DNA of 64,000 nt from Acinetobacter wuhouensis (GTDB lineage: Bacteria; Pseudomonadota; Gammaproteobacteria; Pseudomonadales; Moraxellaceae): the NCBI RefSeq assembly GCF_001696605.3, contig NZ_CP031716.1, positions 2,976,001 through 3,040,000 on the forward strand, read 5' to 3'. Made by a program: the position numbers and the translations under genes. Below, piece by piece: positions 5,334 to 36,043 of this stretch (position 1 is the first letter of the stretch; every line of letters starts with the position of its first letter). The notes below the pieces were generated by a model. It had not been told where the DNA came from and did no database searches. It was given only the letters and a program-made list of their open reading frames with translations.

Positions 5334-5365
5334 GTAACGGCATTTATACACGAATGTATAAATTA

Positions 5366-5688: not shown

Positions 5689-5765
5689 TGGCGCAGCGGA
5701 CGGGACTCGAACCCGCGACCCTCGGCGTGACAGGCCGATATTCTAACCAACTGAACTACCGCTGC
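5689..5765 (-). tRNA. tRNA-Asp(GTC)
   Basis: Fourth tRNA-Asp(GTC) copy with encoded CCA. It sits directly next to another Asp gene, breaking the strict Val/Asp alternation. Confidence 0.97.
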
Positions 5766-5788
5766 ACTATAAATTCAACGTTAAAGCT

Positions 5789-5864
5789 TGGTGGGCGCTG
5801 ACGGGATCGAACCGCCGACATTCTGCTTGTAAGGCAGACGCTCTACCAACTGAGCTAAGCGCCC
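5789..5864 (-). tRNA. tRNA-Val(TAC), first of the array
   Basis: Same tRNA-Val(TAC) body with encoded CCA. It is promoter-proximal, so the array promoter should lie in 5870-5960. Confidence 0.97.
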
Positions 5865-8015: not shown

Positions 8016-8120
8016 ATTTCTCATAAAAAATAGTTTTTTTATATGCTTTGTCTTTTTAATTTTCTTTCGGTTTTATCTTCCACTATCATATTACTTCATT
8101 CACTTAATTGATCAATGTTC

Positions 8121-9257: not shown

Positions 9258-9310
9258 TTTGATCTAAACAAACCCTCAATATTGATCTGATCAATAGAAT
9301 CTTTAAAAAG

Positions 9311-19028: not shown

Positions 19029-20744
19029 ATGCGCGCGAGTCGCTTTTTATTTGCAACGTTAAGAGAAACCCCAAATGATGCTGAGGTCATCTCACATCAG
19101 CTTATGTTACGTGCGGGGATGATTCGTAAATTAGCTTCAGGTTTATACTCTTGGTTGCCGATGGGTGTACGCGTGCTCAATAAGGTAGAGGCGATTGTTC
19201 GCGAAGAAATGAACCGTGCAGGTTCATTGGAAACTTTAATGCCAGTCACTCAACCCGCATCACTTTGGGAAGAATCTGGTCGTTATGTACAATATGGCCC
19301 TGAACTTTTACGCTTTAAAGACCGCCATAGCAATGATTTTGTTCTTGGCCCTACGCATGAAGAAGTGATTACTGACTTAGCACGTAATGAGCTTAAAAGT
19401 TATAAACAACTTCCAATGAATTTTTATCAAATTCAAACGAAATTCCGTGATGAAATTCGCCCACGTTTTGGTGTAATGCGTTCACGTGAATTCATCATGA
19501 AAGATGCTTATTCTTTCCATGTAGACCAAGCATCTTTACAAGAAACCTATGATGTCATGTATGACACATATTGCCGTATCTTCACACGCTTGGGTTTAAA
19601 CTTCCGCCCTGTGCAAGCAGATACAGGTTCAATTGGCGGTTCAGGTTCACATGAGTTCCATGTGCTTGCTTCAAGTGGTGAAGACGATATCGCATTCTCT
19701 ACCGAATCAGATTATGCTGCCAATGTTGAAATGGCTGAAGCAGTGCTCGTTGGCGAACGCACTGCACCGACACAAGAATTAAAAATTGTTGATACGCCAA
19801 ATCAAAAAACCATTGATGATGTGTCTGCTTTCTTAGGTTCTAACCCTGCACATTCTGTTAAAGCACTCCTTGTTCAAGGTGTTGCAGAAGAAGGGAAAGC
19901 AGCTCCTGTTGTTGCATTATTCTTACGTGGTGACCATGAACTCAATGAAATTAAAGCTGAAAAGCATCCTTTAATTGCAGCACCACTGACTTTTGCTACA
20001 GAAGCTCAACTCCAAGAAAAGGGCTTAACCGCTGGTTTCTGTGGTCCACAAGGTCTTGTTGATAAAGGTTTAACTGTTATTGTCGATCGTGCTGCATCTG
20101 TGCTTTCAGACTTTGTTGCAGGTGCAAATGAAGTAGATAAACACGCAACAGGTGTTAACTGGGAACGTGATGCGAAATTTACCGAAGTTTATGACTTACG
20201 TAATGTTGTGGAAGGCGATCCTTCTCCAGATGGTCAAGGCACGATTTTGATTAAACGAGGTATCGAAGTCGGTCATATTTTCCAACTCGGTCAAAAATAC
20301 TCAGAAGCACTCGGTTGTAAAGTTTTGGGTGATGATGGTAAACCTCTTGTTGTTACAATGGGTTGTTATGGCATAGGTGTAACACGTGTTGTTGCCTCTG
20401 CAATTGAGCAAAACTTTGATGATAAAGGAATCATTTGGCCTGCAGCGATTGCACCATTTGAAATTGCAATCGTTCCAATGAATGCTCAGAAATCACCACG
20501 TACACTTGAAGCTGCTGAAACACTTTATGCTGAACTGCAAGCTGCGGGTTATGATGTGTTACTCGATGACCGTAATGAACGTCCCGGCGTTAAATTCTCT
20601 GACATTGAGCTAACAGGTATTCCACACCGCATCGTGATTGGTGAAAAAGGTTTGGATGCAGGGACTTTTGAATATAAAGGTCGTCGTGATGAAGAGTCTG
20701 TAAATCTATCTAAAGAAGAATTATTGGCTACAATTGCAAAATAA
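19029..20744 (+). CDS. proS: Prolyl-tRNA synthetase
   Basis: A 571-residue bacterial-type class II enzyme charging tRNA-Pro. The N-terminus Met-Arg-Ala-Ser-Arg-Phe-Leu and motif 2 region [13 protein letters not shown] are typical. A YbaK-like editing insertion occupies about 225-395. Motif 3 is at Gly-Cys-Tyr-Gly-Ile-Gly-Val-Thr-Arg, followed by an anticodon-binding domain with [10 protein letters not shown]. Full length. Confidence 0.97.
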
Positions 20745-20800: not shown

Positions 20801-21781
20801 TTACAGACCACTTATTCTTACTTTTAAATCTGTTACTGAGGTACCAACTGCCCCCAAATTCCCCATTGAACCATTTTGAATATTAGCAAATGCTCCAGAC
20901 GTATTTGTAGCGCCAGCATTCCCCATGATGACATTATTAAGCCCTATATCAAATTTACTTGACTCACCTGTATTCCCAAATACAAAGCCTGATGGTTCAA
21001 CTCCTGCATAAAAACCACTTAAAGAAAACCCTTGTACTTTATCTGATCCTGAGAGCATAAAATCGAACTTTGCTCCTATGTCACCGCCTACACCACCATC
21101 AGAAATAATATTAATTCCGCATCCAGAACCTGTTGTTCCAGAATTTCCCTTACCATTTCCACAAATAGAACTAATCGAACCAGCAAATTTTATAAATTGA
21201 CTTTGAGGAACATTACCCAACTGTAAGTTTATAGTTGGAGCAGAAGGACCAAAATTAATATCAATACCATTATTCGCAGTTAAAAACTTTTGGACATCTG
21301 AATTTCTCGATGTACCTGTAAAAATAGATTTTGACATTCCTGGCATTGAAGTCGAAGATACTCCAGCTAAATACAAACCCAGTGGCCCAAGAGAAATACC
21401 TTTTATATTTTTATCAAAACTCAAAGCAATATTTGCAAAAGGCGCTCTGGCTCCACCATCAGTGTCAAATACAGCGTTAATTGTAGATGAACCAGTAGAT
21501 CCAATAAAATTTAGAGCAAACTTTTGACCACTTGCTGTACCCGCAATATTACCAGCTAGCACAAGTGAAGCAGCATTCTTATAATCAGGATTTGTCCCTA
21601 GACCATCTCGATCAATTATAGACAATTGATCAATTTGAACTTTACTGACACCTATACCTACATTAATCCCACTCTGACCTGTCGCTTCAGATAGATTTTC
21701 ATCATCCAGAGGTTGCATCGCCACTGCAAATGGGCTAAGTACCAATAAAGATATACATCCAAGTTTTTTACTTATTTTCAT
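20801..21781 (-). CDS. Exported GQ-motif protein, 326 aa (fourth gene of putative operon)
   Basis: A signal peptide (about 1-21, cleavage after Ala-Val-Ala) is followed at once by Leu-Asp-Asp-Glu-Asn-Leu-Ser-Glu-Ala-Thr-Gly-Gln-Ser-Gly (25-38), the motif shared across this cluster. The rest is Gly/Ser/Asn-rich with short alternating strands (Val-Gln-Ile-Asp-Gln-Leu-Ser, Gly-Ile-Ser-Leu-Gly-Pro-Leu-Gly) and one close Cys pair near 206-218, suggesting a beta-rich surface or periplasmic protein. The motif resembles that of FilA/DUF6160-type proteins, but no pilus genes accompany it. Function not recognised. It lies 101 bases after the preceding gene. Confidence 0.7.
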   Translation of the reverse strand: MKISKKLGCISLLVLSPFAVAMQPLDDENLSEATGQSGINVGIGVSKVQIDQLSIIDRDGLGTNPDYKNAASLVLAGNIAGTASGQKFALNFIGSTGSSTINAVFDTDGGARAPFANIALSFDKNIKGISLGPLGLYLAGVSSTSMPGMSKSIFTGTSRNSDVQKFLTANNGIDINFGPSAPTINLQLGNVPQSQFIKFAGSISSICGNGKGNSGTTGSGCGINIISDGGVGGDIGAKFDFMLSGSDKVQGFSLSGFYAGVEPSGFVFGNTGESSKFDIGLNNVIMGNAGATNTSGAFANIQNGSMGNLGAVGTSVTDLKVRISGL

Positions 21782-21882
21782 TATCCTAATCCTTAGGAAA
21801 ACTTATAATTGCCTACCACATCACAGTCTATTGAAAAGTTTCTTATATTAAAAGCAGAAACCGACCAATAACAAATCAAAAA

Positions 21883-24282
21883 TTAATTTCTCGGAATAAT
21901 ATTAAACTGACTCGTTAAACGACCACCTGTTAGAGCGACTTCTCCCAATCGAGAACCAGCATTCACACCTGTAGATGCAGGCGGATAGAAATTTAAATCA
22001 CGCGCTCTAAAGACTCCATCAGCACTATTACTTGGATTAAATTGAAGGCTCGCATTAAACCCAACTTGACCATCACCAGTACTAGAGTTTTTACCGATGA
22101 CAATCGCATTATTGAAACCCAATTCACCAGTTAAATTATCCAGACCTAAAGCTGAACCATTAATGGGGTCAGAAATTTGAATCGTGTTTGTTGACCCTTT
22201 AAGCTTTAAATCACCAATAACGCTTAAACGACTACCTGTACCATCAGCTAGGATTTCACTATTTGGGATTAAAGAAAGATTCATATCTCCACCAAATCGA
22301 ACTTTCATCCCCATTAAAACGTCATCGCTTTTTGAAAAGTTTTTTATATCAGAAACACTTTGAGCTTTACAAGCCGCAGAACCTGCATTCGCTGCACCAG
22401 TTAAACAAGATGCATAAGTCGTACCTGGTAGATAACCGGCTGCAACTTCTGCAGCCATAACAACTAACATATTATTTAAACTTAAATTTAAACTTCCATT
22501 CTCCACACCGATATTGCCATTACCCTTGAGTAACATATCAACATTTCTAAGTCCCATATAATAATCTTTAGCACCGTCAATGACCATTATAGAAGTAGTT
22601 TTTGAACCATCAGCATTTTTACCTTGGGTACTCATACCCAATGAAAATCCAAGACGCGGAGTTGTGCCAGAATCAGCAACTTTAGTCTTATTTCCATTTA
22701 AATCAAAAAAATAGGAACTAGATGCATCAGCATTGACGCCTGAAATTGCAAAATTGGCATTCAAGTTATAGAAAGGTAAGGCAAGCCCCCATTTATTATC
22801 TAAACCATTATTAGCATTATTCGAAAATAAATTAGATGCAGCTACGTTCGCACTACTTGTAAAGCGCCCTCTTCTTGAGATTGCTTGGAATTCCCCACCA
22901 CGTATTGACGTCACTAAACTATATGGGCGGTTATTCGTTAAATTACTCGCTACAGTTGTATACAAATCTTGCTTATAATCTTCAACACTTGTTAGTTTCT
23001 GACCATTACCAAAAAGAGAATTCTGAAAAACTGTATTTGGAGGTAAAGTAACCTGCTTTGAGTCAGTCAAATTAATGTAAACATCACCTGTATCAAATGA
23101 AGCTCGATTCGCTTTTAGCAAACCTGTTAAATTACCAAATTCAAATCCATAAGTATTTAAACCTGCACCGCCGATTTCAAGTGTTGTCGCACTACCGCCA
23201 GTAGCCAACATTGGATCCGAATCTTTGGTAAAGTCTGTTTTCATTCGAAATGCTATGCCTGATTCACCAGCAATACCTTTGTTTTGGTCTGCCTTGTCTG
23301 AATTGATTGCAGAACCCAACAAATTACCCGCGTTTTGCATACCACGGAACTGTAAAAAACTATTTACCATCCGTCCACTCGCGCCAACTCTGATCAATCC
23401 TTTTGCCCCTGTTGGAGTATTAGTACTGTCTAGTGAATAAGCATTGGTTGATGTAACACCCTTATTAAGCATAATCTCAAGATTTAAACCCGCATTTGTT
23501 GTCGAACTCCCTCCATAAGTACCAGTGTTTACAAGATTAGCTGATGCTGAATCTACAACACGAGTTAAATCAACATAGCCATTTACAGTACCTGAATTCG
23601 TCTGTAGTTTAAATCCTTCAATTGGGTCAACAAATATAAATCCTTGCCCTTTAAAGTTAAAATTAAAATTCTTTAAAATTAACTGATTAAGCTGTCCAGA
23701 TGCACTTACCTGTCCCAAATAGATATTTGCATTTTGCAAGCCAAGATTAAGCTCAGCAAGGTCGGTTTTGCTCAAAATCCCATTGGTTGTCTTTAAGCCG
23801 AAATGTGTATTTGAAGTCGTTTGTACAGCTAAACTACCTATTTTTGCACTACAACGAGTTCCACTTATAGCACTATCACAAATTTGAAAAGACTCTACCG
23901 TTAAAAGCATAGGTGACAAGCTTAAATCTAAGTTTGTAGCAACTTTATTATCAACCGTTCCCATATTTAGCTTCATGTCAGCAGTTAATGGTGTCGATGA
24001 AATATTACTTTTTTGCAACTTTACTGTATTTGCTATGGCAGTCAAACTTTGATCTGTAGCATCAGACTCAGCACGCCCTGACTGATCAGTCCAATACAAC
24101 GTTTTAATATTTGATTCTTTTAAAGACGCTTCAATATGAATACCATCTTGACCATTTATAGCACGAAGATCACCATCATCTAAAGCCTGTAAAGCATGAG
24201 CAGACATATGAACAAAAAGTATGCTCAATGATAAAGTATTTAAGATAATTTTTTTCGGACATTTTTTTTGTTTAATATTCAT
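21883..24282 (-). CDS. Exported GQ-motif protein, 799 aa (third gene of putative operon)
   Basis: The signal peptide (about 1-30, Ala-His-Ala) is followed by Leu-Asp-Asp-Gly-Asp-Leu-Arg-Ala-Ile-Asn-Gly-Gln-Asp-Gly (34-47), then Ile-His-Ile-Glu-Ala-Ser-Leu. The body is a long run of Asn/Ser/Gly-rich beta segments repeating patterns such as Asn-Leu-Ser-Leu-x-x-Met and Gly-Asp-Leu-Lys-Leu-Lys-Gly. There are few Cys and no transmembrane helix beyond the signal. No autotransporter barrel or anchor is visible. Function unknown; a large secreted or outer-surface beta-solenoid-like protein is the likely class. Confidence 0.7.
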   Translation of the reverse strand: MNIKQKKCPKKIILNTLSLSILFVHMSAHALQALDDGDLRAINGQDGIHIEASLKESNIKTLYWTDQSGRAESDATDQSLTAIANTVKLQKSNISSTPLTADMKLNMGTVDNKVATNLDLSLSPMLLTVESFQICDSAISGTRCSAKIGSLAVQTTSNTHFGLKTTNGILSKTDLAELNLGLQNANIYLGQVSASGQLNQLILKNFNFNFKGQGFIFVDPIEGFKLQTNSGTVNGYVDLTRVVDSASANLVNTGTYGGSSTTNAGLNLEIMLNKGVTSTNAYSLDSTNTPTGAKGLIRVGASGRMVNSFLQFRGMQNAGNLLGSAINSDKADQNKGIAGESGIAFRMKTDFTKDSDPMLATGGSATTLEIGGAGLNTYGFEFGNLTGLLKANRASFDTGDVYINLTDSKQVTLPPNTVFQNSLFGNGQKLTSVEDYKQDLYTTVASNLTNNRPYSLVTSIRGGEFQAISRRGRFTSSANVAASNLFSNNANNGLDNKWGLALPFYNLNANFAISGVNADASSSYFFDLNGNKTKVADSGTTPRLGFSLGMSTQGKNADGSKTTSIMVIDGAKDYYMGLRNVDMLLKGNGNIGVENGSLNLSLNNMLVVMAAEVAAGYLPGTTYASCLTGAANAGSAACKAQSVSDIKNFSKSDDVLMGMKVRFGGDMNLSLIPNSEILADGTGSRLSVIGDLKLKGSTNTIQISDPINGSALGLDNLTGELGFNNAIVIGKNSSTGDGQVGFNASLQFNPSNSADGVFRARDLNFYPPASTGVNAGSRLGEVALTGGRLTSQFNIIPRN

Positions 24283-24307
24283 CCTTGATCCCTCAGATTC
24301 TAACTAT

Positions 24308-25060
24308 TTACAAACAACGAGGATGTGAACTATCACAACTAAACATCATCATCTGCCCTTGCAAAGCAAGGTTCCCATTCATCTGCATTCCCATGAAACC
24401 TTTTTCTTTACCAACATCATATAAATTTGCAGTTGTAGCACCACTTGCGACAGTCCCTGTTTTTGCAGGAACTGCTGTATAAGTTCCAGTATTTAAGTAA
24501 CCGTATGTACTCTGACCTGTTGGTTCAGTAAGCACATTTTTACTTGTTTGCGTGCTCACAAATCCATCTTGTTCGATTGAAAGTGCATTAAATCCAAAAT
24601 TACGAATTTGTATAGGCATACTCGATAAAAAGCCCAATTGAATCGCTGGCTTAATCACATTTCCAATAACTAAGTCTGTACCATCTAAGCTTAGTTTTTG
24701 AATATTCATCGTTCCTTGCACGCCTTTCATTACTAACCACAAGCGATTTCCCGATGTATCATCTGGCATATATCCAGATGGATAATTCGCCGTATCTGTC
24801 GTTGGCTTCACAAAGCGCTTATTGGGTGAAATTGCAAGGCGACAAAATTGGATTTTTGCTGGATCACAGTTAAACGTGGGTTTCGTTCCATCGTTTAACT
24901 GTACATTTGTTAACACATTCTGATTTAATGAAAGCTTTAATGATAAATCAGCACCCGCTTGGCCTTCCACTTGTTGTAAATCAGAATCAGATAACACTTC
25001 CATAGCATTTAATTGGAAACTAACTATACTCGTTAAAAAAAGAAGCATCATTTTTTTCAT
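24308..25060 (-). CDS. Exported GQ-motif protein, 250 aa (second gene of putative operon)
   Basis: The signal peptide (1-19) is followed by Leu-Ser-Asp-Ser-Asp-Leu-Gln-Gln-Val-Glu-Gly-Gln-Ala-Gly (23-36), then strands Leu-Ser-Leu-Lys-Leu-Ser-Leu. Two Cys lie near 65-73 (Asn-Cys-Asp-Pro...Gln-Phe-Cys-Arg), and the last seven residues contain two more (Ser-Cys-Asp-Ser-Ser-His-Pro-Arg-Cys-Leu), so disulfides are likely. The gene begins 14 bases after the upstream gene ends and stops 25 bases before the next, which supports one transcript. Function unknown. Confidence 0.7.
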   Translation of the reverse strand: MKKMMLLFLTSIVSFQLNAMEVLSDSDLQQVEGQAGADLSLKLSLNQNVLTNVQLNDGTKPTFNCDPAKIQFCRLAISPNKRFVKPTTDTANYPSGYMPDDTSGNRLWLVMKGVQGTMNIQKLSLDGTDLVIGNVIKPAIQLGFLSSMPIQIRNFGFNALSIEQDGFVSTQTSKNVLTEPTGQSTYGYLNTGTYTAVPAKTGTVASGATTANLYDVGKEKGFMGMQMNGNLALQGQMMMFSCDSSHPRCL

Positions 25061-25074
25061 TTTTTTCTCCTTTC

Positions 25075-27357
25075 CTATAAACCTTTAGTTGTTAATTTCA
25101 AATGTTGTATTAGAACCCCATCAATCACAGCTGAACCTAGATTATTCATAGGGGATGTTAGTGTTGTTGTACCTAAAGGAACACCCGAAGTTGGATCAGC
25201 AGTACTCGTCCACGTAGTTCCTGTATAATTTGCACCATAAGCATTTAACACACTTTGCGCTAAAGTAGACCCTTTCGCTCCGCCCCCCCATGTAGGTACT
25301 GCCCATTGTCCTGATTCAATATTAATATTTGAACAATACCCAGAATCACCAGCACAAGAGCTCCAACCCATTTTCCCCCAGCCTTTTCCAACTACATACC
25401 CATTGTGAACAACATTTGGTGCATAACCCAAATCGACTAAATTACCAGAAGCATCTTTAATTTGCGTATTTGCAAGCGTATTTGCAGAACCAGAAGCGGT
25501 ACAGTTTAATTTAGTATCCGAAAGGCATGCGACATTAAAACTAGGTATATTCACCCAAGCAGCATTTGTATTAAATGGATTATAACAAGCCCCACTACCT
25601 CCACCACTCGCTGCACCACTACATCCATTCGTTACAGCATTTCCCCAAGTGACACCATCTGCTTGTAGATATTGCCATGCATTATTGACTGCACGTCTTT
25701 GTTGCATTTGCAGTTGATAATAAATTTGCTGACTTTTCACTCCAGCTACCACTGAAGATAATGCACCAAATGAAATACCCACAGCACCTGCTGTTTTATC
25801 TGCCAGTAGTGTATTACCTCCATCTGGACTATAAACAGTACCTATACTAATACTGCTATGTGTCGCATTTGATCGCTGATATCCAGCTATAACATTTTCC
25901 ACATCAACATCTGTTCTGCCACATTTATACACATTACAAGTCGAACCTAAATATGTAGAAGAAGTTGGATTACTATAATCTGTATAAATTTTTTCATATA
26001 TCGCAGCTTTGTTTGGAATTCTTGTCAACTCCAAGCTAAAGTTTTTACCATCCGAACCTAATATCAGAGGTTGATAAACAGAACCTAAAACTAGGTTAGT
26101 ATTTAAGTTATAAATATAAATACCTTCATTTGCATTAAAAGTTGGGGCTAAAGTATTATTCAAAGCTGGCGTTGCTAAGTTAGCAGTATCTGTCGTTTCT
26201 TGAGTGCTCAATCTCAATACATGATCATTTAGGTTCGCTGGAGCTGTCCAGTTCCCAGTAGTATAATCATATGCGGTATCTAGTGTTCTTAGACGATACT
26301 GTGAAGCTACACTTTGTGAAATATGATTTGCCGTACTCGTATTCGGTTGCCCTAAAAAAACTGTTGAATAACGATTTGTGGTTGATTGTGTTTTTGTTAC
26401 AGAACCATTCGTGATTCCAGTTGCTAATAATTTTGAGCCATCACCACTATTAAAGCGTAGAACCCCCGCCATACCTAGAGTATTGTTATAAAACTTACTC
26501 ATACCATTTGCATTATCAGCCCCACCCAAGGTCTGAAACATTTGTATCTTGCTACCATTTATACCAAAACCATTCCAAACACCTTGCAAGCGTATTCTAT
26601 TTGCACGATCCTCTGCAGTTGTGCTAAATAACTCACCTAGCTTAAATTGATCTGCACTACCTTCACTTTTGCTTTGGTCAAGAACAAATGCATCTGCCCA
26701 AAGACCTAGTTTTAAGTTATATGCATCCTTACCCATTGAGTCGACTGCTTTTGTCGTGAGTGCATTATTACTTTTATCAAATGAATATATATTTTCATAC
26801 AATGGTGCTTCAAAATTTAAATACGTTACAGAACCAGATCCCGCACCAAAATCCGGAACATTATTATCCGTTTTAACATTTAAAATCCAAGGGTTTGCTG
26901 CTGTTCCCCAGCTTTTTATCGCCGCGTTTGCGACATTATTGGTCAAGCCAGCATCCAAGCGACTATTTGCATCATTATTTGCGTTCTTTGAAACAGCCAA
27001 ACCATATAAGTATAAATCTGCTTTACCCACAGAGTGATCTGTTGCCGTGACCGAAAGATCTTTATTTGTATCCTGAACCACAGACGTAAGAGGTCCTACA
27101 GGGATATAGTGGATATAACCAATATCCTGATTCCGTTTTGTAGCATCCAATATATTGGCTTCAGTTTGATTTGCTCCAACACCTTGAAATACCATATATG
27201 CATTTTGCGGAAGCAAAGCAATCCCCTCACCCGTGGTATCACCTAACTTTTCATCTGTAAGTTCTTGGAGGGCGAAGCAAGATTGGCTAATACATAAGCC
27301 AATAAAACTCGCTAAAACGGTTTTATGAAATTTTACCGTATAATTGAGTGTAGTCAT
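25075..27357 (-). CDS. Exported GQ-motif-like protein, 760 aa (first gene of putative operon)
   Basis: The signal peptide (about 1-29, Ser-Cys-Phe-Ala) is followed by Leu-Thr-Asp-Glu-Lys-Leu-Gly-Asp-Thr-Thr-Gly-Glu-Gly (33-45); the usual Gln is Glu here. The remainder is Thr/Asn/Gly-rich with many Tyr and two Cys-rich stretches (Ser-Thr-Cys-Asn-Val-Tyr-Lys-Cys-Gly and Ser-Ser-Cys-Ala-Gly-Asp-Ser-Gly-Tyr-Cys-Ser-Asn). It ends in Leu-Ile-Gln-His-Leu-Lys-Leu-Thr-Thr-Lys-Gly-Leu. GGAAGG lies 6 bases before the start. Function not recognised; export is supported by the signal peptide. Confidence 0.7.
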   Translation of the reverse strand: MTTLNYTVKFHKTVLASFIGLCISQSCFALQELTDEKLGDTTGEGIALLPQNAYMVFQGVGANQTEANILDATKRNQDIGYIHYIPVGPLTSVVQDTNKDLSVTATDHSVGKADLYLYGLAVSKNANNDANSRLDAGLTNNVANAAIKSWGTAANPWILNVKTDNNVPDFGAGSGSVTYLNFEAPLYENIYSFDKSNNALTTKAVDSMGKDAYNLKLGLWADAFVLDQSKSEGSADQFKLGELFSTTAEDRANRIRLQGVWNGFGINGSKIQMFQTLGGADNANGMSKFYNNTLGMAGVLRFNSGDGSKLLATGITNGSVTKTQSTTNRYSTVFLGQPNTSTANHISQSVASQYRLRTLDTAYDYTTGNWTAPANLNDHVLRLSTQETTDTANLATPALNNTLAPTFNANEGIYIYNLNTNLVLGSVYQPLILGSDGKNFSLELTRIPNKAAIYEKIYTDYSNPTSSTYLGSTCNVYKCGRTDVDVENVIAGYQRSNATHSSISIGTVYSPDGGNTLLADKTAGAVGISFGALSSVVAGVKSQQIYYQLQMQQRRAVNNAWQYLQADGVTWGNAVTNGCSGAASGGGSGACYNPFNTNAAWVNIPSFNVACLSDTKLNCTASGSANTLANTQIKDASGNLVDLGYAPNVVHNGYVVGKGWGKMGWSSCAGDSGYCSNINIESGQWAVPTWGGGAKGSTLAQSVLNAYGANYTGTTWTSTADPTSGVPLGTTTLTSPMNNLGSAVIDGVLIQHLKLTTKGL

Positions 27358-27610
27358 CTGTGACCTTCCTTTGTTATACGATGCTCCGCACCATATTTTA
27401 TTTTATTTCTAAATTCCTACTACTATGTAAATCTTCAATCCTACGTTACACAGTATTGTTAGCTATATCACACTTTATAATATGTAATTTAATTCATTAT
27501 GACAAAGTTTTTTAGTTAAAATATATTACTTTCCGACAAACGTATTTTTATAGCCATAAAAAAAGCAATAGCATTTTCATCCTATCACTTTCTATACTTT
27601 CATAAAAACT

Positions 27611-27840
27611 CTAGCAAAATTTGAGGCTACCATAGCAGTTTGGTTGAAAACTCTGTGCTCCTAGCTTCAAGTTCTCCAAAGGTAAAGTAACTCTTTGACC
27701 TGATAAATTAATTGGGTCTGTAATAGGTAAATCCCCCCCTAAACACCCACTATATCCATTACAAGTAATATAATTAGCATATAAATAATCATTTACCTTT
27801 GGAAGAACTTGCTTCAATAAAGCATCTTCAATTTTTATAC
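27611..27840 (-). pseudogene. C-terminal fragment of IS-split GQ-motif paralogue
   Basis: About 76 codons in the same frame as the fragment at 29150-30263. Joining base 29150 directly to 27837 (dropping one TAC copy) gives Gly-Asp-Val-Thr-Pro-Ser-Lys-Gly-Ile-Lys-Ile-Glu and a protein that ends Pro-Asn-Cys-Tyr-Gly-Ser-Leu-Lys-Phe-Cys. The intact paralogue at 33723 has the same ending. The fragment has lost its own promoter and start. Confidence 0.85.
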
Positions 27841-27879
27841 TGAACCGTACCGGGTTTGTCGGAGACTTTTTTATTTAAG

Positions 27880-28782
27880 TTAGGCCACCTGACCTAACGG
27901 ATTAATTTTATCATAGTACATTGCTTCAAAATCAAAAGGTGGCACATAACCTAGTGCACTATGTACACGCTCTTTATTGAACCAATCTACCCAATTTAAT
28001 GTCGCAAGTTGTACATCCGCTAAACCTTGCCAATCTGCTTTTAAATATTCAATCACCTCTGTTTTGTATAAGCCATTCACTGTTTCAGCCAAAGCATTAT
28101 CGTATGAATCACCGGTCGTACCGACTGATGCTCGTAAATTTGCTGCTTCTAAACGATTGGTATAACGAATGGAAAGATATTGCACACCTCTGTCACTATG
28201 ATGAATCACGTTCTTTGGCATGCCTCGATCATGCAATGCTTGCTCCAGTGCATCGAGCACCATGTCTGTATTCATCCGTGTTGATACTTTCCATCCAACA
28301 ATTGCTCGCGAGAACACATCAATAATAAAGGCGGTATAGACCCAGCCTGAATTTGTTTGAATATACGTAAAGTCAGCGACCCACAGCTGGTCAGGGTGAT
28401 CAGCACTAAAATTGCGTTTCACCAAGTCATCTGCTCGTTTTTGATCATCTCGGCTATGGGTAGTTTGTTTATTCTTACCTCGCCAAACACCTTGTATACC
28501 TAGCTTTTGCATCAATCGAGCAACTGTACAGCGTGCAATAATATAGCCTTCACGTTTCAGTTTTTGCCAAACTTTACGTACACCATATCGACCTGAACTT
28601 TCCTTCCAAATTCGTTTAATTTGTTCAGCATGATGCAAGTCATGTAGATCTCGCTTTGCTCGATGTTCTGGGTTTTCGCAGAGATCTAGAGTCCGGTAAT
28701 AGGTTGAGGGTGCGATCGGTAAAATTCTACAAATCGCCTCGACTCCGTACAGCTCTTTATTATTATGGATAAAATCCACCAT
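27880..28782 (-). CDS. IS3-family transposase OrfB (DDE integrase domain)
   Basis: 300 residues. An N-terminal HTH_21 region with Tyr-Gly-Val-Glu-Ala-Ile-Cys-Arg and Ser-Gly-Arg-Tyr-Gly-Val-Arg-Lys-Val-Trp is followed by an rve catalytic core: Trp-Val-Ala-Asp-Phe-Thr-Tyr-Ile (first Asp), His-Ser-Asp-Arg-Gly-Val-Gln-Tyr (second Asp), and Asp-Asn-Ala-Leu-Ala-Glu-Thr (catalytic Glu). Its ATG overlaps the orfA stop by one base in the -1 frame. A TTTTTTC run in the 3' part of orfA could serve as a frameshift site to make OrfAB; that part is inference. Confidence 0.93.
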   Translation of the reverse strand: MVDFIHNNKELYGVEAICRILPIAPSTYYRTLDLCENPEHRAKRDLHDLHHAEQIKRIWKESSGRYGVRKVWQKLKREGYIIARCTVARLMQKLGIQGVWRGKNKQTTHSRDDQKRADDLVKRNFSADHPDQLWVADFTYIQTNSGWVYTAFIIDVFSRAIVGWKVSTRMNTDMVLDALEQALHDRGMPKNVIHHSDRGVQYLSIRYTNRLEAANLRASVGTTGDSYDNALAETVNGLYKTEVIEYLKADWQGLADVQLATLNWVDWFNKERVHSALGYVPPFDFEAMYYDKINPLGQVA

Positions 28783-29099
28783 TATTTGTGTGGGCGGTCG
28801 AGTTCCGCCTGGGCGAAAAAAGCGGCTGCTTTACGTAGAATCTCATTGGCGCGTTGCAGTTCTTTATTTTCGCGTTCGAGTTGTTTGATACGTTCTTGGT
28901 CTGAAAGCTGCTGTACTTTAACTGGATTTAGTTTATCTAAATATTTTTGATACCAAACACGTAGTGTTTCAGGAGTACAACCTATCTTGGGAGCAATAGC
29001 GGTGATCGCAGCCCAATTCGATGGATAATCTTTTTCAGATTCAATCAATAATTGAACCGCTCTTTCTCTGATTTCAGGGGCATATTTTAATTTTGTCAT
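28782..29099 (-). CDS. IS3-family transposase OrfA
   Basis: 105 residues with an HTH_Tnp_1 helix-turn-helix (Tyr-Ala-Pro-Glu-Ile-Arg-Glu-Arg-Ala-Val, then Ile-Gly-Cys-Thr-Pro-Glu-Thr-Leu-Arg-Val-Trp) and a leucine-zipper-like tail (Arg-Ile-Lys-Gln-Leu-Glu-Arg-Glu-Asn-Lys-Glu-Leu). It binds the IS ends. It appears intact. Confidence 0.92.
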   Translation of the reverse strand: MTKLKYAPEIRERAVQLLIESEKDYPSNWAAITAIAPKIGCTPETLRVWYQKYLDKLNPVKVQQLSDQERIKQLERENKELQRANEILRKAAAFFAQAELDRPHK

Positions 29100-29149
29100 C
29101 GGGATAGTCTCTCAGAATATTGACTCTCCGACAAACCCGGTACGGTTCA

Positions 29150-30263
29150 TACCTTTCGATGGTGTTACATCACCTAGCTTAATATCATTTTCAAAAGCCA
29201 TCCACCACCCTCTCTCAGCAGGAGCTGCCGCATTAGCCCATTGTATTTTTTGACTTTGTAATGAAAGCGAAAAAGGATTCCCATTAACAGGAATTTTATG
29301 AATCATGCCCAAACTTTCATCAATTGTAATATCCGCTGTTAAATTTGTAATCTTCCCTGTAACATTCTTTCCCAATGTAATTGGAATAAATCCAGCGACA
29401 TTAATTGTAGCGTCTAAAGGACCTGCAAAATCAATTTGAGGGATAACAGCCGTTGCATTTAAATTAACTTTAGACATTCTACTACCAGAAACTACAATTG
29501 GCGCTGTAGAAAAAGGTACACTTGCCTCATAAAGCGTTAAATTAAACTTATCCGAAACAAAGTTCCTTGGCGAAGAGCTTAAAGGAAAAGCATTTTGTAT
29601 TGAAATACGCCCTGTCATATCACCGATAGCTTGAGTCATCGGCCTTTCAATTGTTTTCGCAGTACCACTTGCTGAAGCCAATTTCAAGTACCCACTCAGG
29701 CTTCTTATTCCATAAGAAGGTGTGTCATCATTGCTTAAACCCAAGGTCATCAATCCTACAACTTTTTCCGCACTTACACGAAACCCTTTTATTTCTCGGG
29801 TAGAAGCAGATCCTGGATTCTTTACAGCAAACTCAATAAAAGGATTGGTTAATTTTGCTGAAGACTGTACTCGCTCGTCACGAGTCATATCTAAAGGTTC
29901 ACCTTTAGCATCCAACTTCAAACCACTTAAGCTTAAATTTTCAATATCAATATCACATGCACCTGAACCATTTACACCACCACAACCTAATTGCAATCTT
30001 TTTATATTTGTATTGAGTTCTAATTCAGCTTCCATTCCTAACTTATAGAAACCAATATTTTTATCACCACCATTACGTGCTGTTTCTAGATTTGCTTTAT
30101 CTGTGGGTGCTATATACGACAAACTCATCAATGCTTGTCCAGTAGTCTCAGCCAGTTGCTCATCCGATAAATTAATCAAAGTTGAAGGTTGTGCAAATAC
30201 TGATGAATTAAGCGCAATATTTAGCGCTAAGATTGTTAAGCACAATAAATTTCCTTTTAACAT
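29150..30263 (-). pseudogene. N-terminal fragment of GQ-motif paralogue interrupted by IS
   Basis: About 371 codons before the IS. The frame then runs 38 bases into the element and stops at 29112. The ATG at 30263 is preferred, with GGAAA about 7 bases upstream; an ATG at 30275 lacks a ribosome site. A signal peptide (1-24) precedes Leu-Ser-Asp-Glu-Gln-Leu-Ala-Glu-Thr-Thr-Gly-Gln-Ala-Leu-Met, then the paralogue block Asn-Ile-Gly-Phe-Tyr-Lys-Leu-Gly, Leu-Gln-Leu-Gly-Cys-Gly-Gly-Val-Asn-Gly and Arg-Gly-Trp-Trp-Met. The undisrupted protein would have been about 446 residues, close to the intact 459-residue paralogue. A truncated, exported product could still be made. Confidence 0.88.
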
Positions 30264-30500
30264 GAATATTTCCATATGAATAATTATTAATCAAAAACAA
30301 AAACCAAACATCACATTTAAAATCAGGTGTTTATATTTAAATAAACTACACAAATAAAAATAACCAGAAATTATTTTGTATTGTTTTTAACGTATTTATT
30401 TAAAATTTGCGACAAGATTAACATATTTCACATGAACAATAATCACTTTAATAATTTATTTTAAATAATATTTTCTTTATTATTGATTTTCATAACAAAT

Positions 30501-30527
30501 AAAAAAGCAGCCAAAGCTGCTTTTTAT
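30501..30527 (-). terminator. Rho-independent terminator of split GQ-motif gene
   Basis: AAAAGCAGC/GCTGCTTTT with a 4-nt loop and a T tract on the minus strand, 27 bases past the stop of the fragment at 30554. Confidence 0.8.
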
Positions 30528-30553
30528 AAATAAGAACTAAACATTTAATTGTT

Positions 30554-31068
30554 TTAACAAAATCTAAGCGTTCCATAACAATTTGGAGTTACATTTTGCA
30601 CAGCCCCCAATGGAAGATTATTTAATCTAACATTAATTGGTGTTCCGCCAACCGCAGGGTTTGTATAGGAGTTTAAATCTACAGTACCTAATTTAGCCAC
30701 CAATTTACTTGTAAACAATGAACCAGCAGCATCCCAGAAAGAAACATATAAAGGATTATCATCTAAATATTTAGAAACCACTGTAGCAACACTTGGATAC
30801 GCAGAAGAAATATCTGCTGAAAAACCACTTTGAGTTTCTAAATTACCTAACTTCACAGGATCATTGGCTGCTAACCACCATCCACGTTGCGCAGCAATAT
30901 ACTGATTTGTAACAGGGCTCTTAGGCGCACCTGGCCAAAGTATATTTTGATATTGCAATGATAATGACAATGGAGATTGTATCGGTATACTATGAATCAA
31001 CCCCAAAGATTGAGTAAGATTAACATCTACGTATAGATTTGAAATTTTACCATCAATTCTCATGTCTG
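30554..31068 (-). pseudogene. C-terminal fragment of second IS-split GQ-motif paralogue
   Basis: Continues in frame from 32307 after removal of the IS and one CTG copy. The joined codon reads Asp, followed by Met-Arg-Ile-Asp-Gly-Lys-Ile-Ser-Asn-Leu-Tyr-Val-Asp. It has Gln-Arg-Gly-Trp-Trp-Leu and ends Pro-Asn-Cys-Tyr-Gly-Thr-Leu-Arg-Phe-Cys, like its paralogues. It has no start or promoter of its own, except for any outward promoter in the IS. Confidence 0.87.
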
Positions 31069-31141
31069 TGATCCTAGACAAAATAATGGACAGCACGTCC
31101 CTCTAAAGATAACGTAACTTTAATCTTTGGAGATTCAAGAA

Positions 31142-31435
31142 ATGGCTAAACGTTTTAGTCCCGAATTTAAACAGCAAGCGATTGATTATGCACTTTCAAA
31201 CTCACACGAGTCTGTAGCTGCAATCGCCCAGAAATTAGGTGTGGGTTATTCAACATTAGATAAATGGATTCGTGAAACCAATCCGGCAGGTTCAAGCAAA
31301 CGTCAACTTTCACCAGAACAACAGCGGATCGTGGAATTAGAGAAAGAAGTCAAACAGCTCAAGGAAGCCAATGACATCTTAAAAAAAGCGCATGTGTACT
31401 TTCTAACAGATCATGCCAAGAAAAGTACACGGTAA
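31142..31435 (+). CDS. IS3-family transposase OrfA
   Basis: 97 residues from the ATG at 31142 (begins Met-Ala-Lys-Arg-Phe-Ser-Pro-Glu-Phe-Lys-Gln). It has an HTH_Tnp_1 domain, Leu-Gly-Val-Gly-Tyr-Ser-Thr-Leu-Asp-Lys-Trp, and a leucine-zipper segment. A run of seven A then G at 31381-31388 is a classic -1 slippage site. After slipping, the frame stays open into orfB, so an OrfAB fusion transposase is expected. Confidence 0.93.
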   Translation: MAKRFSPEFKQQAIDYALSNSHESVAAIAQKLGVGYSTLDKWIRETNPAGSSKRQLSPEQQRIVELEKEVKQLKEANDILKKAHVYFLTDHAKKSTR

Positions 31436-31449
31436 TTCAAGATCTAGAT

Positions 31450-32301
31450 ATGAATGAAGTCACCGTATCTTCTGCCTGTAAATACCTAGGTGTCAGCACT
31501 TCAGGCTATTATGCCTGGCGAAAACGTCAAGCCAATACGGCACAGAAATATAATGACTTAAAAGCCGTATATTGGCAGCATCATGCACGATTGGGTGCAC
31601 CTTCATTAGTACATGACATGCATGATTTAGGTTACAACATGAGCGAACGTACTATTGGAAGGATGCTAAAAAAGCTTGGTTTACGTAGCAGGATTGCGCG
31701 TAAATACAAGCATACGACTGATTCAACCCATCGTTTGCCTACAGCACCCAACTTGTTGGATCGCCAATTTACAGTTACTCAGCCTAATAAAGTCTGGACA
31801 ACAGACATTACCTATATCCGCACTAAAGAAGGTTGGTTGTATTTATGTGTGATGCTAGATTTATTTAGCCGTCGTATCGTGGGGTGGCAAACCAGCCATC
31901 GAATAGACCGCCAGTTGGTGTGTGATACGTTTAACTATGCAATGGCTCGTCAGGGTTATCCAACTGGTGTTATGGTTCATTCGGACCAAGGCTCACAGTA
32001 CTGTAGTCGTGATTTTAGAGCGCTGTTACTGAAAAATGATTGTACTCAGAGTATGTCTAGACGTGGAAACTGTTGGGATAATGCAGTGACTGAAAGCTTC
32101 TTTCATACATTAAAAGGTCATGTGGTACATGGCAGTGTGTTTTCGACTCGAAAAGAGGCGAATGCGGTCTTGTTTGATTATATTGAGATTTATTACAATC
32201 GGGTCAGAAGGCATTCTGCAAACGGCTGGTTAAGTCCAGAAGCCTTTGAACAGAAATATTTCAAGAATTTAGAGGGATCGATTGTCCACGATACTGTCTA
32301 G
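31450..32301 (+). CDS. IS3-family transposase OrfB (DDE integrase domain)
   Basis: 283 residues from the ATG at 31450, though the frame is open upstream as needed for an OrfAB fusion. The HTH_21 part (Leu-Gly-Val-Ser-Thr-Ser-Gly-Tyr-Tyr-Ala-Trp) is followed by an rve core with Thr-Thr-Asp-Ile-Thr-Tyr-Ile, His-Ser-Asp-Gln-Gly-Ser-Gln-Tyr and Asp-Asn-Ala-Val-Thr-Glu-Ser, giving the DDE triad. It looks intact and matches the partial copy at 63600 over all the residues that can be compared. Confidence 0.94.
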   Translation: MNEVTVSSACKYLGVSTSGYYAWRKRQANTAQKYNDLKAVYWQHHARLGAPSLVHDMHDLGYNMSERTIGRMLKKLGLRSRIARKYKHTTDSTHRLPTAPNLLDRQFTVTQPNKVWTTDITYIRTKEGWLYLCVMLDLFSRRIVGWQTSHRIDRQLVCDTFNYAMARQGYPTGVMVHSDQGSQYCSRDFRALLLKNDCTQSMSRRGNCWDNAVTESFFHTLKGHVVHGSVFSTRKEANAVLFDYIEIYYNRVRRHSANGWLSPEAFEQKYFKNLEGSIVHDTV

Positions 32302-32306
32302 GATCA

Positions 32307-33255
32307 CTGATATAGCATAATTACAAAGAGGTATGATCACAACAACAAAACATCCAGCAAGATCAGCTCGCCTTGTTCCAGAGTTTTCTGTTAAAACAAT
32401 ATCTGGAACTTTAGCCAAAGCGCCAACATTAATAAAAGTTTGCCTACTTCCATTTAAATCAGTCGATTTTGTTGTAAAAGAAACTCCCATTCCATCAATT
32501 TGAATAGGTTTAGTATCTGTCTTAAAATCAGCAGGGCATCCTGCAATACATCCCCCTATATCAACCTTGCCTGTAAAAACTTCTCGCATTTGACCAACTG
32601 CTGTCTTCGTTGAGCCACTGGTAGATGCTACATTCATATAACCGCTTAATGAGTTTATCCCATTAATCGTCCCATCATTTTCACCTATAGTTAGCAATCC
32701 CTTAGCCAATTCCGAACCCAATCTTAAGCCTACTATTTCACGCGTAGATGAACTTCCTGGATTTCGTATCGCAAACTCTATAAATGGGTTTGTTAGCTTA
32801 GCTGATGATGACACCCGTTCCTCCCGCGTCATGGCAACAGGGTTTCCCGAATCATCTAATTTCACGCCTGATAAACTCACATTATCAAGATCTATATCAC
32901 ATCCATTTGCGCCATTTACTCCGCCACAGCCCAATTGTAGTTTTTTAATATTAGCATTCAGCTCTAGTTCAGCTTCAAATCCTAATTTGTAAAATCCAAT
33001 ATTTTTCACTCCGTTTACTGAGTTTTCTAAATTTTTTGAATCAGTTGGTGCTATATAGGACATACTCATTAATGCTTGTCCATCAACATCACTTAATTCT
33101 TGATCTGATAAACTCATCATTGGAGATGCAACACCACTGACTTTTGACAGATCTTCATCTGGAATAGCCTGCATACTAGTTGCTGCTATAGTTGTTTTCG
33201 TTAACGAGATAACCAAAAAAAATATTAGACCAAAAATCTGCTTTTGCTTAAACAT
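32307..33255 (-). pseudogene. N-terminal fragment of second GQ-motif paralogue interrupted by IS
   Basis: About 316 codons before the IS; the frame runs on into the element to 32269. The start at 33255 has AAGGAG 6 bases upstream, whereas the ATG at 33261 overlaps that site. After the signal peptide (about 1-24) there are two successive motif copies: Ile-Pro-Asp-Glu-Asp-Leu-Ser-Lys-Val-Ser-Gly and Leu-Ser-Asp-Gln-Glu-Leu-Ser-Asp-Val-Asp-Gly-Gln. The paralogue block then follows (Ser-Tyr-Ile-Ala-Pro-Thr-Asp; Cys-Gly-Gly-Val-Asn-Gly). The undisrupted length would be about 486 residues. Confidence 0.87.
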
Positions 33256-33554
33256 GAACATCTCCTTATCCTTAGACTATGCTCAAAAGTGAAGCTCTAA
33301 AGTTTTATCACTCACCTTTTAAATTTAGAATTTCTTCATGATTTTTAAAAAGTTAGCTATTCAAACTGTATTTTTGTTTTCAATGGAGCAATATATTGTG
33401 ATTAAATTATCATTACTCACATAAATTTGCACATTTTTCCGATAGAATAAAAAGCATATTATTGATGTAAACTAAACTATTGTTTTTTATTTCTTTATTT
33501 GCATAGCCCATATTTAAAAGCATGAAGTATTTTATATATTTGTTTACAGAAAAT
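33256..33554. other. Intergenic region upstream of second GQ-motif paralogue
   Basis: AT-rich with no gene. It contains TCACATAAATTT (33417-33428) and TTCCGATAGA (33437-33446), both also found upstream of the paralogue at 33723-35102, and probably holds the promoter. Confidence 0.5.
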
Positions 33555-33583
33555 AAAAAAGTAGCCTTAGCTACTTTTTTTAA
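33555..33583 (-). terminator. Rho-independent terminator of intact GQ-motif paralogue
   Basis: AAAAAAGTAGC/GCTACTTTTTT with a 4-nt loop, about 140 bases beyond the stop at 33723. The T tract is present on the minus strand. Confidence 0.75.
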
Positions 33584-33722
33584 ATGATCAATTTTAGATT
33601 TGAATTATAACACATTAGTGACTACCACTTATTCTCCCCTATACAAAACAGGCTTTACTTACTATGCTTGTATATTGAGTCCATAATATAAAAAGTCATT
33701 ATCCTACTAGCCATTAACATAC

Positions 33723-35102
33723 TTAACAGAACTTTAATTCACCATAACAGTTAGGAGTAAAGTTCTGATTTTTTAACACTAAATTATTAAGAGGCATTAG
33801 TGACGGAGCAGCACCAGTTAGATCAACCGTTCCAACTGCAATTGAATCACCAAATAAACAATTCAAAATCCCCCAAGAACCACAATTAATTTCGTTTTCT
33901 TTTTTTGCCAAAAAATTATTAATCTGCCCCATAGCATTCTGTATTGTTGACTTTTCAATATCCACTGGCAAACTTGGAGTAATATCACCAATATCAATAG
34001 GATTAGAAAACTCCAACCACCAACCTTTTTGAGAAACAGAATTATTACCTGCCCATTTTAAATCTTGCGACTGCAACGATAAAGACACTGGAGTCCCATT
34101 CAAACTTGCTTTATGAAAATAATTCAACCCTTCTGTAATTGTTGCATCAACAGCCAAATTTTTAATCGTACCAGATGTTTGCCTATCTAAATTAATAATC
34201 AAAAGAGCATTTGCTACAATATTACCACTAATAGCAATATCATTAACTGTAGCAGATGCTTTTAAGACAGCTTGATTAATTCGCTTACCTGTAATTTCCT
34301 GCTGAGGTAAACTCAAATTCCCCTGTAAAATATTACTCCCCGTCGCTGCATCTGTTAAATTCAAGTTATAACTTTTCGTTGTAAAACCAACTCCCGAAGC
34401 TGTACCCTTAATCGCGACACCAGTATAGGTTTGTGTCAATTTCGCTTTAGCAGCTTCATCTGATTTACCATTACCATAACCATTTACTTTTGCTATACCA
34501 CCAGTTTTAGCAACCTGCATATAACCACTAAGCCTATTAATTCCTGTATGAACAGCTCCAACAGCATCACTATTATCTGTACCAAATGTGATTAAACCTA
34601 ATGCTTTTTCCGAGCTCAAATTTATTCCAACTATTTCTCGTGTTGATGCACTGTCTGGGTTTTTTATTGCAAATTGTATAAATGGATTCGTTAAAACAGC
34701 ACTCGATTCCACTCGAGCTTGCCGATCACTAGCACTCTCAGTATTTGAAGTCTTGGAATTACCCAATCCACTTAACCCCAGATTATCAATATCAATATCA
34801 CACAAACCCGCCCCATTTACACCACCACAGCCGAGTTGTAGTTTCTTAATATTAGCATTTAATTCCAATTCAGCTTCCAAACCAAGCTTATAAAAACCAA
34901 TATTAGATGTTTGATTGCGCTTGGTTTCCAAATTTGCTGCATCATTAGGTGCGATATAAGACAAACTCATTAAAGCCTGCCCAGTCATTTCAGACATTTG
35001 CTCGTCAGACATCGCTTGCATAGAAGCGGCAAAGGCAGAACCTGTAGCTACTCCACTAAACGTCAGCAATGCAATTTTTAAATATTTTGATTGGAACATC
35101 AT
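33723..35102 (-). CDS. Exported GQ-motif protein, 459 aa (only intact member of the three paralogues)
   Basis: The signal peptide (about 1-25, Ser-Ala-Phe-Ala) is followed by Met-Ser-Asp-Glu-Gln-Met-Ser-Glu-Met-Thr-Gly-Gln-Ala-Leu-Met (31-45), Ser-Tyr-Ile-Ala-Pro-Asn-Asp and Asn-Ile-Gly-Phe-Tyr-Lys-Leu-Gly. The paired-Cys segment Leu-Gln-Leu-Gly-Cys-Gly-Gly-Val-Asn-Gly...Cys-Asp-Ile-Asp comes next. The middle is beta-rich. Gly-Trp-Trp-Leu lies near 350, and the end is Pro-Asn-Cys-Tyr-Gly-Glu-Leu-Lys-Phe-Cys. An even number of Cys suggests disulfides outside the cytoplasm. No anchor or enzymatic motif is visible and the function is not recognised. An ATG one codon later is equally possible. 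Confidence 0.75.
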   Translation of the reverse strand: MMFQSKYLKIALLTFSGVATGSAFAASMQAMSDEQMSEMTGQALMSLSYIAPNDAANLETKRNQTSNIGFYKLGLEAELELNANIKKLQLGCGGVNGAGLCDIDIDNLGLSGLGNSKTSNTESASDRQARVESSAVLTNPFIQFAIKNPDSASTREIVGINLSSEKALGLITFGTDNSDAVGAVHTGINRLSGYMQVAKTGGIAKVNGYGNGKSDEAAKAKLTQTYTGVAIKGTASGVGFTTKSYNLNLTDAATGSNILQGNLSLPQQEITGKRINQAVLKASATVNDIAISGNIVANALLIINLDRQTSGTIKNLAVDATITEGLNYFHKASLNGTPVSLSLQSQDLKWAGNNSVSQKGWWLEFSNPIDIGDITPSLPVDIEKSTIQNAMGQINNFLAKKENEINCGSWGILNCLFGDSIAVGTVDLTGAAPSLMPLNNLVLKNQNFTPNCYGELKFC

Positions 35103-35473: not shown

Positions 35474-36043
35474 TTAAGCCTTCGGTAAAGTCACACCTGT
35501 TTGACCTTGGTATTTCCCACCGCGATCTTTATAAGAAGTCTCACATACTTCATCTGATTCAAAGAACAACATTTGTGCTACACCTTCACCTGCATAAATA
35601 CGTGCAGGAAGATTAGTTGTATTTGAGAACTCAAGTGTTACATGACCTTCCCACTCAGGTTCAAGTGGTGTGACATTCACAATGATGCCACAACGTGCAT
35701 AAGTTGATTTACCCAAACACACAGTCAAAACATTACGAGGAATACGGAAATACTCTACTGTACGTGCTAAAGCGAACGAGTTCGGTGGGATAATACATAC
35801 ATCAGATTCGATATCGATAAAACTACGATCATCAAAGTTTTTCGGGTCTACAATTGCAGAGTGAACATTGGTAAACACTTTGAACTCACGTGCGCAACGT
35901 ACATCATAACCATAGCTTGAAACGCCATAAGAAATGAGCTTTTCACCATTTTCATCATAACGAACTTGGTTTTCTGCATACGGTTCAATCATGCCGTGTT
36001 TTTCGCTCATTTCACGAATCCAACGATCAGACTTAATTGCCAT
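35474..36043 (-). CDS. dcd: dCTP deaminase
   Basis: A 189-residue homotrimeric enzyme converting dCTP to dUTP for thymidylate synthesis. Recognisable segments are Ser-Ser-Tyr-Gly-Tyr-Asp-Val-Arg near 40, [10 protein letters not shown] (substrate binding), and [14 protein letters not shown] containing the catalytic Glu. The end [10 protein letters not shown] is the usual lid. Full length and monocistronic. Confidence 0.96.

Follow-up and report, generated by a model that had tools for sequence, protein, structure and literature searches.

The subject of this analysis is a cluster of seven genes for exported proteins in a 64,000-nucleotide stretch of the Acinetobacter wuhouensis genome (3.96 Mb), positions 2976001-3040000 of contig NZ_CP031716.1, here called the window. 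The FilB and ProS sequences likewise assign the genome to Acinetobacter. The seven proteins share a short motif behind the signal peptide and very probably belong to the Fil system, named a 'putative pilus' system of Acinetobacter. The motif is probably recognised by FilB, a C39-type peptidase encoded in the fil operon (locus L001), which occupies 844-853 kb on the same contig and is separated from the cluster by about 2.1 Mb. Taken jointly, Fil membership and recognition by FilB are likely on the evidence of sequence, which suggests a little-studied, FilB-based surface-protein system handling all seven.

The shared motif and its carriers

The seven open reading frames (ORFs) lie on the minus strand, flanked by proS (19029-20744) and a gene for dCTP deaminase (35474-36043), encode 250-799 amino acids (aa), and are named c1 (326 aa), c2 (799 aa), c3 (250 aa), c4 (760 aa) and c5 (387, 330 and 459 aa). 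The original prediction had described seven same-strand genes of this size range, with signal peptides on all and with Gly-Gln in six and Gly-Glu in the seventh, and these points are borne out: a signal-peptide-like hydrophobic N-terminal stretch is seen by eye in 7/7 ORFs, L/M-x-D-x-x-L/M-x4-G-x follows a few residues past it in 7/7, and the motif ends in GQ in six and in GE in the 760-aa c4. It had, however, taken all seven genes as whole; the 387-aa and 330-aa ORFs are cut by IS3-type insertion sequence (IS) elements, which it missed. The genes are as follows (pLDDT, predicted local distance difference test).

20801..21781, minus strand: c1, 326 aa, FilA-like; motif LDDENLSEATGQ; DUF6160 33.4 bits; NCBIfam FilA 101.1 bits; model pLDDT 77.9
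21883..24282, minus strand: c2, 799 aa; motif LDDGDLRAINGQ; DUF6160 38.1 bits; orthologues in other families
24308..25060, minus strand: c3, 250 aa; motif LSDSDLQQVEGQ
25075..27357, minus strand: c4, 760 aa; motif LTDEKLGDTTGE, ending G-E
29112..30275, minus strand: c5 copy, 387-aa ORF, 3' end cut by an IS; motif LSDEQLAETTGQ
32269..33261, minus strand: c5 copy, 330-aa ORF, interrupted by an IS; motif present twice, as IPDEDLSKVSG and LSDQELSDVDGQ
33723..35102, minus strand: intact c5, 459 aa; motif MSDEQMSEMTGQ; model pLDDT 84.9

A profile search of the kind proposed with the original prediction recovers these genes. A 25-residue profile of the motif, built from 50 segments (ten per family, none from the window, L001 or L002), finds nine genes in the six-frame genome at E <= 6.5e-6, which are the seven of the window, FilA and a paralogue at L002; the next match (E 0.21) is the second motif inside the 330-aa ORF. 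This extra copy (IPDEDLSKVSG) is located upstream of LSDQELSDVDGQ. Among the fetched loci, a strict pattern (L/M-x-D/N-x-x-L/M-x4-G-Q/E within the first 115 residues) occurs in 137/188 family ORFs versus 0/345 other ORFs, and a looser pattern in 187/188 family ORFs, at least two of which match by chance (one is a fragment cut by an IS). In profile-profile comparison, the five families (FilA/c1, c2, c3, c4 and c5) align with one another at probabilities of 92.7-98.8, while the exported controls FilC and FilD score 0.2-2.2 against the same five profiles. Nine of the ten family pairs align over 38-49 columns only, the pair of FilA/c1 with c2 extending over 108; thus, beyond this pair, there is no sign of a shared fold. 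It is nearly certain that the shared part is a module of signal peptide plus motif placed on differing cargo. The original prediction had named chance similarity, with neither a shared fold nor co-conservation, as grounds for abandoning it; the genes prove co-conserved in the genus and in other families, while one part of that condition does hold, as no common fold is apparent and, FilA/c1 with c2 excepted, the families cannot be aligned past 38-49 columns.

Predicted structures of the 459-aa c5 protein (63 sequences, pLDDT 84.9) and of c1 (28 sequences, pLDDT 77.9) are mainly beta, have no good match among solved structures and place a short helix at the motif, ahead of the first strand. The 459-aa protein has 1054 relatives at E <= 0.001.

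The likeness to FilA/DUF6160 that the original prediction recognised is confirmed for part of the cluster. DUF6160 (PF19657, cut-off 27 bits) is reached by c1 (33.4) and c2 (38.1) only; c3 (25.6), the 330-aa ORF (16.9) and the 459-aa protein (20.5) score below the cut-off, and the search gives no match for c4 and the 387-aa ORF. The NCBIfam FilA profile (NF050077, cut-off 220 bits) is reached by none (c1 101.1, c2 40.6, c4 15.3, no match for c3 and the c5 ORFs); the match of c1 spans the length of the protein, with its score under the cut-off. In c3, a 25-residue N-terminal stretch scores 15.3 bits with NCBIfam bacteriocin_sig (cut-off 15.7, E 0.023). In the c4 family, the last place of the motif is E in 81%, A in 15% and S in 3% of 33 segments.

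FilB as the candidate reader of the motif

At L001, the NCBIfam cut-offs are exceeded by FilA (281 bits), FilB (528.2), FilC (680.2), FilD (1089.5), FilE (443.4) and FilF (776.5). FilB, of which the genome has a single copy, matches the C39 peptidase family (PF03412) at 60.8 bits (cut-off 22), and among solved structures its nearest relative by sequence is 6mpz, a double-glycine-motif protease domain (E 1.2e-4). Against the functional-amyloid (Fap) proteins of Pseudomonas, FilB matches the peptidase FapD (110.8 bits, below the cut-off of 330) and the outer-membrane protein FilC matches the channel FapF (64.7 bits, below the cut-off of 700); FilD is FadL-like (PF03349, 218.9 bits). Residues Q71, C77, H162 and D178, presumably the catalytic positions, are invariant in 16 FilB/FapD relatives. 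The earlier statement that the window holds no secretion or processing gene fits its annotated ORFs, which are not every ORF of the window; a candidate processor and a candidate exporter, FilB and FilC, are encoded elsewhere in the genome. According to passages of PMC12802150, A. baumannii depends on the type II system to release FilF, the lipoprotein encoded last in the operon; thus, more than one export route may be used.

The motif resembles the leaders of double-glycine peptides, which read L-S-x-x-E-L-x-x-I-x-G-G and thus have the same spacing. With the residue after the motif G numbered -1, the anchors of 172 unique segments are L/M at -12, D (80%), N or E at -10, L/M at -7 and G at -2; position -4 is V in 44%, T in 23% and I in 11%, and position -1 is Q in 75%, E in 16%, A in 2% and R in 2%, the search pattern having partly fixed -12, -10, -7 and -2 and left -4 and -1 free. 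The double-glycine anchors (L-12, L-7, hydrophobic -4, G-2) are present in the motif, whereas its last residue departs from those usual at -1 in C39 substrates (G, A or S). In a blind check, 50 motif segments were each compared with all NCBIfam and Pfam families: FilA is matched by 25 segments and DUF6160 by 33, and the other families matched number six in NCBIfam and six in Pfam. Five of the former (bacteriocin_sig, lacticin 481, pheromone VP1, mersacidin type and lichenicidin A2) and four of the latter (Lactococcin, ComC, Mersacidin and L_biotic_typeA) are families of peptides with leaders of double-glycine type. For 50 control segments, chosen by a crude rule from behind signal-like stretches of other ORFs, such families make up 0/25 of those listed for NCBIfam (27 in all) and 0/11 for Pfam (Fisher p 3.5e-5 and 0.006, respectively, for motif versus control segments).

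If the motif is a C39 site, the neighbours of FapD should carry it as well, and this was tested with an 11-column weight matrix that was trained on Fil clients only, with the last residue omitted, and run on the ORFs beside 25 FapD-type peptidases (the ABC-transporter loci L092 and L093 and the FilB-type loci being set aside; ABC, ATP-binding cassette). The best neighbour exceeds the ~1% level of 345 control ORFs in 17/25 loci, where 0.44 are expected from random draws; the loci are not independent, because some share one genome, and for L076, among the 17, the top-scoring stretch differs from the intended motif. By eye, a D/E-L/M-x-x-x-R/H-G motif stands beside FapD in 20/25 loci, is partial in L083, L085 and L096, and is not seen in L084 and L086. 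FapD is over its cut-off in five loci, and in 5/5 a carrier of the motif directly follows fapD; the two of these carriers that were scanned are FapE (346 and 351 bits, NCBIfam cut-off 250), and two weaker carriers match FapE below that cut-off. The FapE motif reads L-K-D-Q/A-E-L/M-A-x-L-R-G-R/K and lies behind the signal peptide. At L045, L046, L081, L082 and L095, the FapD-type gene is flanked on both sides by motif-bearing exported genes, one with R-G-G in its motif and the other ending G-R. Passages of PMC5557850 report for a Pseudomonas sp. that ~70 residues at the FapE N-terminus are missing in mass spectrometry and that the active-site cysteine of FapD is required for secretion; the target of FapD is there left open by the authors, who saw no canonical C39 site. 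A 2025 review (PMC12822426, in part) has it that FapD is thought to process the N-terminus of FapE.

Presence and absence of the clients largely follow those of FilB. Among 79 Acinetobacter genomes, FilB occurs in 66 and FilC in the same 66, while DUF6160, the 459-aa family and the 760-aa family each occur in the same 68; both FilB and the cluster are found in 66 genomes, the cluster alone in 2, FilB alone in 0 and neither in 11 (among them G030, 65% complete, and G032, 90% complete), with a Fisher p of 8.6e-12 when kinship is ignored. The original prediction suggested looking for a co-occurring conserved exporter or protease; FilC and FilB, the candidates for these roles, are co-inherited with the cluster. 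The c4 and c5 counts are the cleaner test, because the fil operon itself contributes FilA to DUF6160. On a tree of ProS from 75 of these genomes (all but G004, G030, G032 and G053), the absence of FilB (11 rows) requires 8 changes (7-9 in bootstrap trees), 4 of them forced by strongly supported branches, versus a mean of 10.5 for shuffled labels, 8/500 shuffles being as low as 8. By eye, in 6/8 of these changes the cluster is missing too; G012 and G075, which retain it, are lone tips. Across 145 genomes of the order, with a FilB-type threshold of >= 161 bits chosen after the list was seen, FilB-type genes occur in 18, DUF6160 in 19 and both in 17 (p 5e-19 before kinship). DUF6160 stands alone in G080, a 75%-complete genome that has a C39 match of 26 bits, and in G135, with a single match under the cut-off; weaker FapD-type matches occur in five further genomes of the order without DUF6160.

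Other families of the order also have the core c2-c3-c4 plus c5. The cluster lies on the same strand as filABCD at a distance of 11.2 kb in G187, 12.3 kb in G214 and 10.0 kb in G103 (two families). Of 20 further Acinetobacter stretches, several of which end early by a chosen boundary or contig end, 16 hold c2+c3+c4+c5, 3 hold c2+c3+c4 and 1 holds c3+c4. A motif protein is encoded within about 6 kb in 62 of the 80 best named FilB loci (from at least 587). The 18 loci without one are all 12 of Marinobacter (L231, L233-L235, L240, L241, L245, L246, L250, L253, L254 and L258) and 6 others, and filC is kept in 18/18; thus, if Marinobacter has clients, their genes are expected to be unlinked.

Working model and its alternatives

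The seven genes are proposed to encode Sec-exported (general secretory) clients of the Fil system, supplied in trans. Removal of the signal peptide would leave a pro-segment of about 15 residues, ending G-Q, G-E or G-A, that is predicted to be bound by periplasmic FilB in the way in which C39 domains hold double-glycine leaders. A cut by FilB at or near the motif would follow, and the client, licensed by the cut, would be carried by FilC to the outer membrane or through it. By analogy, cleavage by FilB is favoured on balance; passage through FilC, which is modelled on the need for FapD activity in the secretion of FapC through FapF, is a more tentative step.

Several observations weigh against this model. 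The motif G is followed by Q or E (beside FapD, by R, K or G), the matches to double-glycine families are weak (E 0.017-0.061) and come from one or two segments each, and the motif region is modelled with modest confidence in both the 459-aa protein and c1. FapE aligns with the client profiles at a probability of 30-79 only, and the ~70 residues missing from its N-terminus exceed the roughly 15 of the predicted pro-segment. The cluster persists in G012 and G075, which have neither FilB nor FilC, and in G136 a FilB-type gene occurs where DUF6160 gives no match. The co-occurrence figures are raised by kinship, and the DUF6160 counts include FilA, itself part of the fil operon. The whole case is built from gene sequences and predicted proteins.

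An alternative that is improbable but deserves weight is docking without cutting, in which the motif lets FilB, or the periplasmic part of FilC, hold on to clients for chaperoning or sorting, the proteolytic target of FilB being another one, such as the FilC linker. The motif is the conserved part, its G-Q/G-E ending is unusual for a C39 cut, and passages of PMC5557850 and PMC12822426 indicate that some C39-like domains are chaperones only and also suggest cleavage of FapF. The conservation of Q, C, H and D in FilB speaks for a working peptidase instead, as do, within what PMC5557850 gives, the requirement for the FapD cysteine and the loss of the FapE N-terminus. About equally improbable is that the clients are periplasmic or outer-membrane proteins that handle lipids or hydrophobes and are not exported, serving uptake together with the FadL-like FilD (PF03349, 218.9 bits) and the FilC channel. 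FapF resembles the COG4313 hydrophobe-uptake channels in the part of PMC6173800 that treats them, and both client models are predicted to be all-beta, but neither has a fold match for lipid binding; moreover, this alternative concerns direction and purpose and is compatible with recognition by FilB.

A little less probable still is that the motif is read by another factor (FilC, FilD or another) and that FilB only travels along. FilC occurs in the same 66/79 genomes as FilB, so co-occurrence cannot separate the two, and filC and filD accompany filB in nearly all named loci; the motif spacing, however, matches what C39 domains read, and motif carriers adjoin FapD-type peptidases in 20/25 loci by eye. 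A purely structural role of the motif, as a cap at the N-terminus of related beta proteins and not as a recognition site, is very unlikely: the short helix precedes the first strand in both models, but the families do not align past the motif (FilA/c1 with c2 excepted), FapD neighbours also carry it and the cluster co-occurs with FilB. Short matches near signal peptides do happen, and some FilC controls hold loose ones, but chance can be set aside given 0/345 for the strict pattern, 0.2-2.2 for the FilC/FilD controls and nine genes only in the genome.

The addition made here to the published account of FapD and FapE is the like motif at the same place in FapE and the Fil clients; it is not certified as new, the literature having been searched without queries on a FapE motif. 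A motif common to FapE and five Fil client families is a definite sequence to test for the target of FapD. If the model is true, DUF6160 and conserved 'hypothetical' exported proteins of Acinetobacter and its relatives gain a working role, and the clients of a surface system become predictable from sequence alone. That the cluster products make a surface structure or matrix, as the original prediction had considered, is possible; they may form a fibre, a coat or a layer that handles lipids.

Gene layout, broken c5 genes and known systems

The c4-c1 genes (27357-20801) are tightly packed with a terminator-like hairpin after them, and terminator-like hairpins also separate the three 459-type (c5) genes. 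By packing and hairpins the seven ORFs are unlikely to be one transcription unit; this is a weak conclusion, the hairpin evidence being weak because 13 hairpins were found versus 8.5 in shuffles. The insertions and the gene remainders beside them are given below, with the direct repeats read by eye.

27841..29149, minus strand: IS3-type element; perfect terminal inverted repeats; 3-bp direct repeat TAC; rve and HTH_Tnp_1 domains
31069..32306, plus strand: IS3-type element; 3-bp direct repeat CTG; rve and HTH_Tnp_1 domains
27614..27841, minus strand: 3' remainder of the 387-aa c5 copy, matching residues 378-458 of the 459-aa protein
30554..31068, minus strand: 3' remainder of the 330-aa c5 copy, matching residues 302-458 of the 459-aa protein

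The 387-aa ORF ends within the first element (27841-29149) and the 330-aa ORF within the second (31069-32306), and an ORF called at 30554-31096 starts inside the latter. A fourth c5 gene, at L002 elsewhere in the genome, is interrupted by a copy of the second element (about 8030-9267) with the direct repeat GTT; with the two window insertions, three of the four c5 genes seen in the genome are thus broken. One IS type in two c5 paralogues, with differing direct repeats, may reflect either a target preference or the selected loss of a surface protein.

Farther off in the window, eight tRNA genes lie on the minus strand at 4688-5864 (four Val, tac, and four Asp, gtc). The cluster is also found at L097 (CP040048.1:486767-512245), in a 657-kb A. 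baumannii 'plasmid' record that holds metG, a dCTP deaminase gene and the signal recognition particle gene as well; the c2 homologue there is labelled 'heme utilization protein', for which the window c2 is without Pfam or NCBIfam support.

Three known systems bear comparison. The closest is the Fil system itself (filABCDEF; NF050077-NF050081, NF033645; DUF6160, FilE_C): FilA has the same motif and a likeness to c1, all of filABCDEF is present in the host genome, and the cluster is co-inherited with FilB and FilC. By contrast, the window cluster sits elsewhere, without filB-filF, and c3, c4 and c5 are not FilA by profile cut-offs. In the Fap functional-amyloid system of Pseudomonas (fapABCDEF), FapD is related to FilB and FapF to FilC, and FapE, encoded beside FapD, carries a similar motif. 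FilB and FilC are below the Fap cut-offs, however, no FapB/FapC-type match is reported in NCBIfam scans of eight ORFs, and the Fil clients are predicted to be folded all-beta proteins (two modelled); thus, by its profile scores, Fil would not be a member of Fap but looks like it in the respects tested.

Double-glycine leader peptides with C39 peptidase-transporters (bacteriocins, lantibiotics and ComC) share the leader spacing, the anchor residues and the peptidase family. By contrast, the leader here follows a Sec signal peptide, the peptidase is a stand-alone protein that lacks an ABC transporter, the cargo proteins measure 250-800 aa and the leader ends in Q or E, not G; by this last residue, the seven-protein system would not be a canonical double-glycine system. 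It is an evenly balanced prospect that the system is a periplasmic counterpart, in which a second, C39-type leader behind the signal peptide is read by a stand-alone FapD/FilB and sorts unalike, large, beta-rich proteins, often encoded far off, to a channel of the FapF/FilC type. If so, the FapE motif would be the recognition site of FapD, and DUF6160 would be largely the name of the leader.

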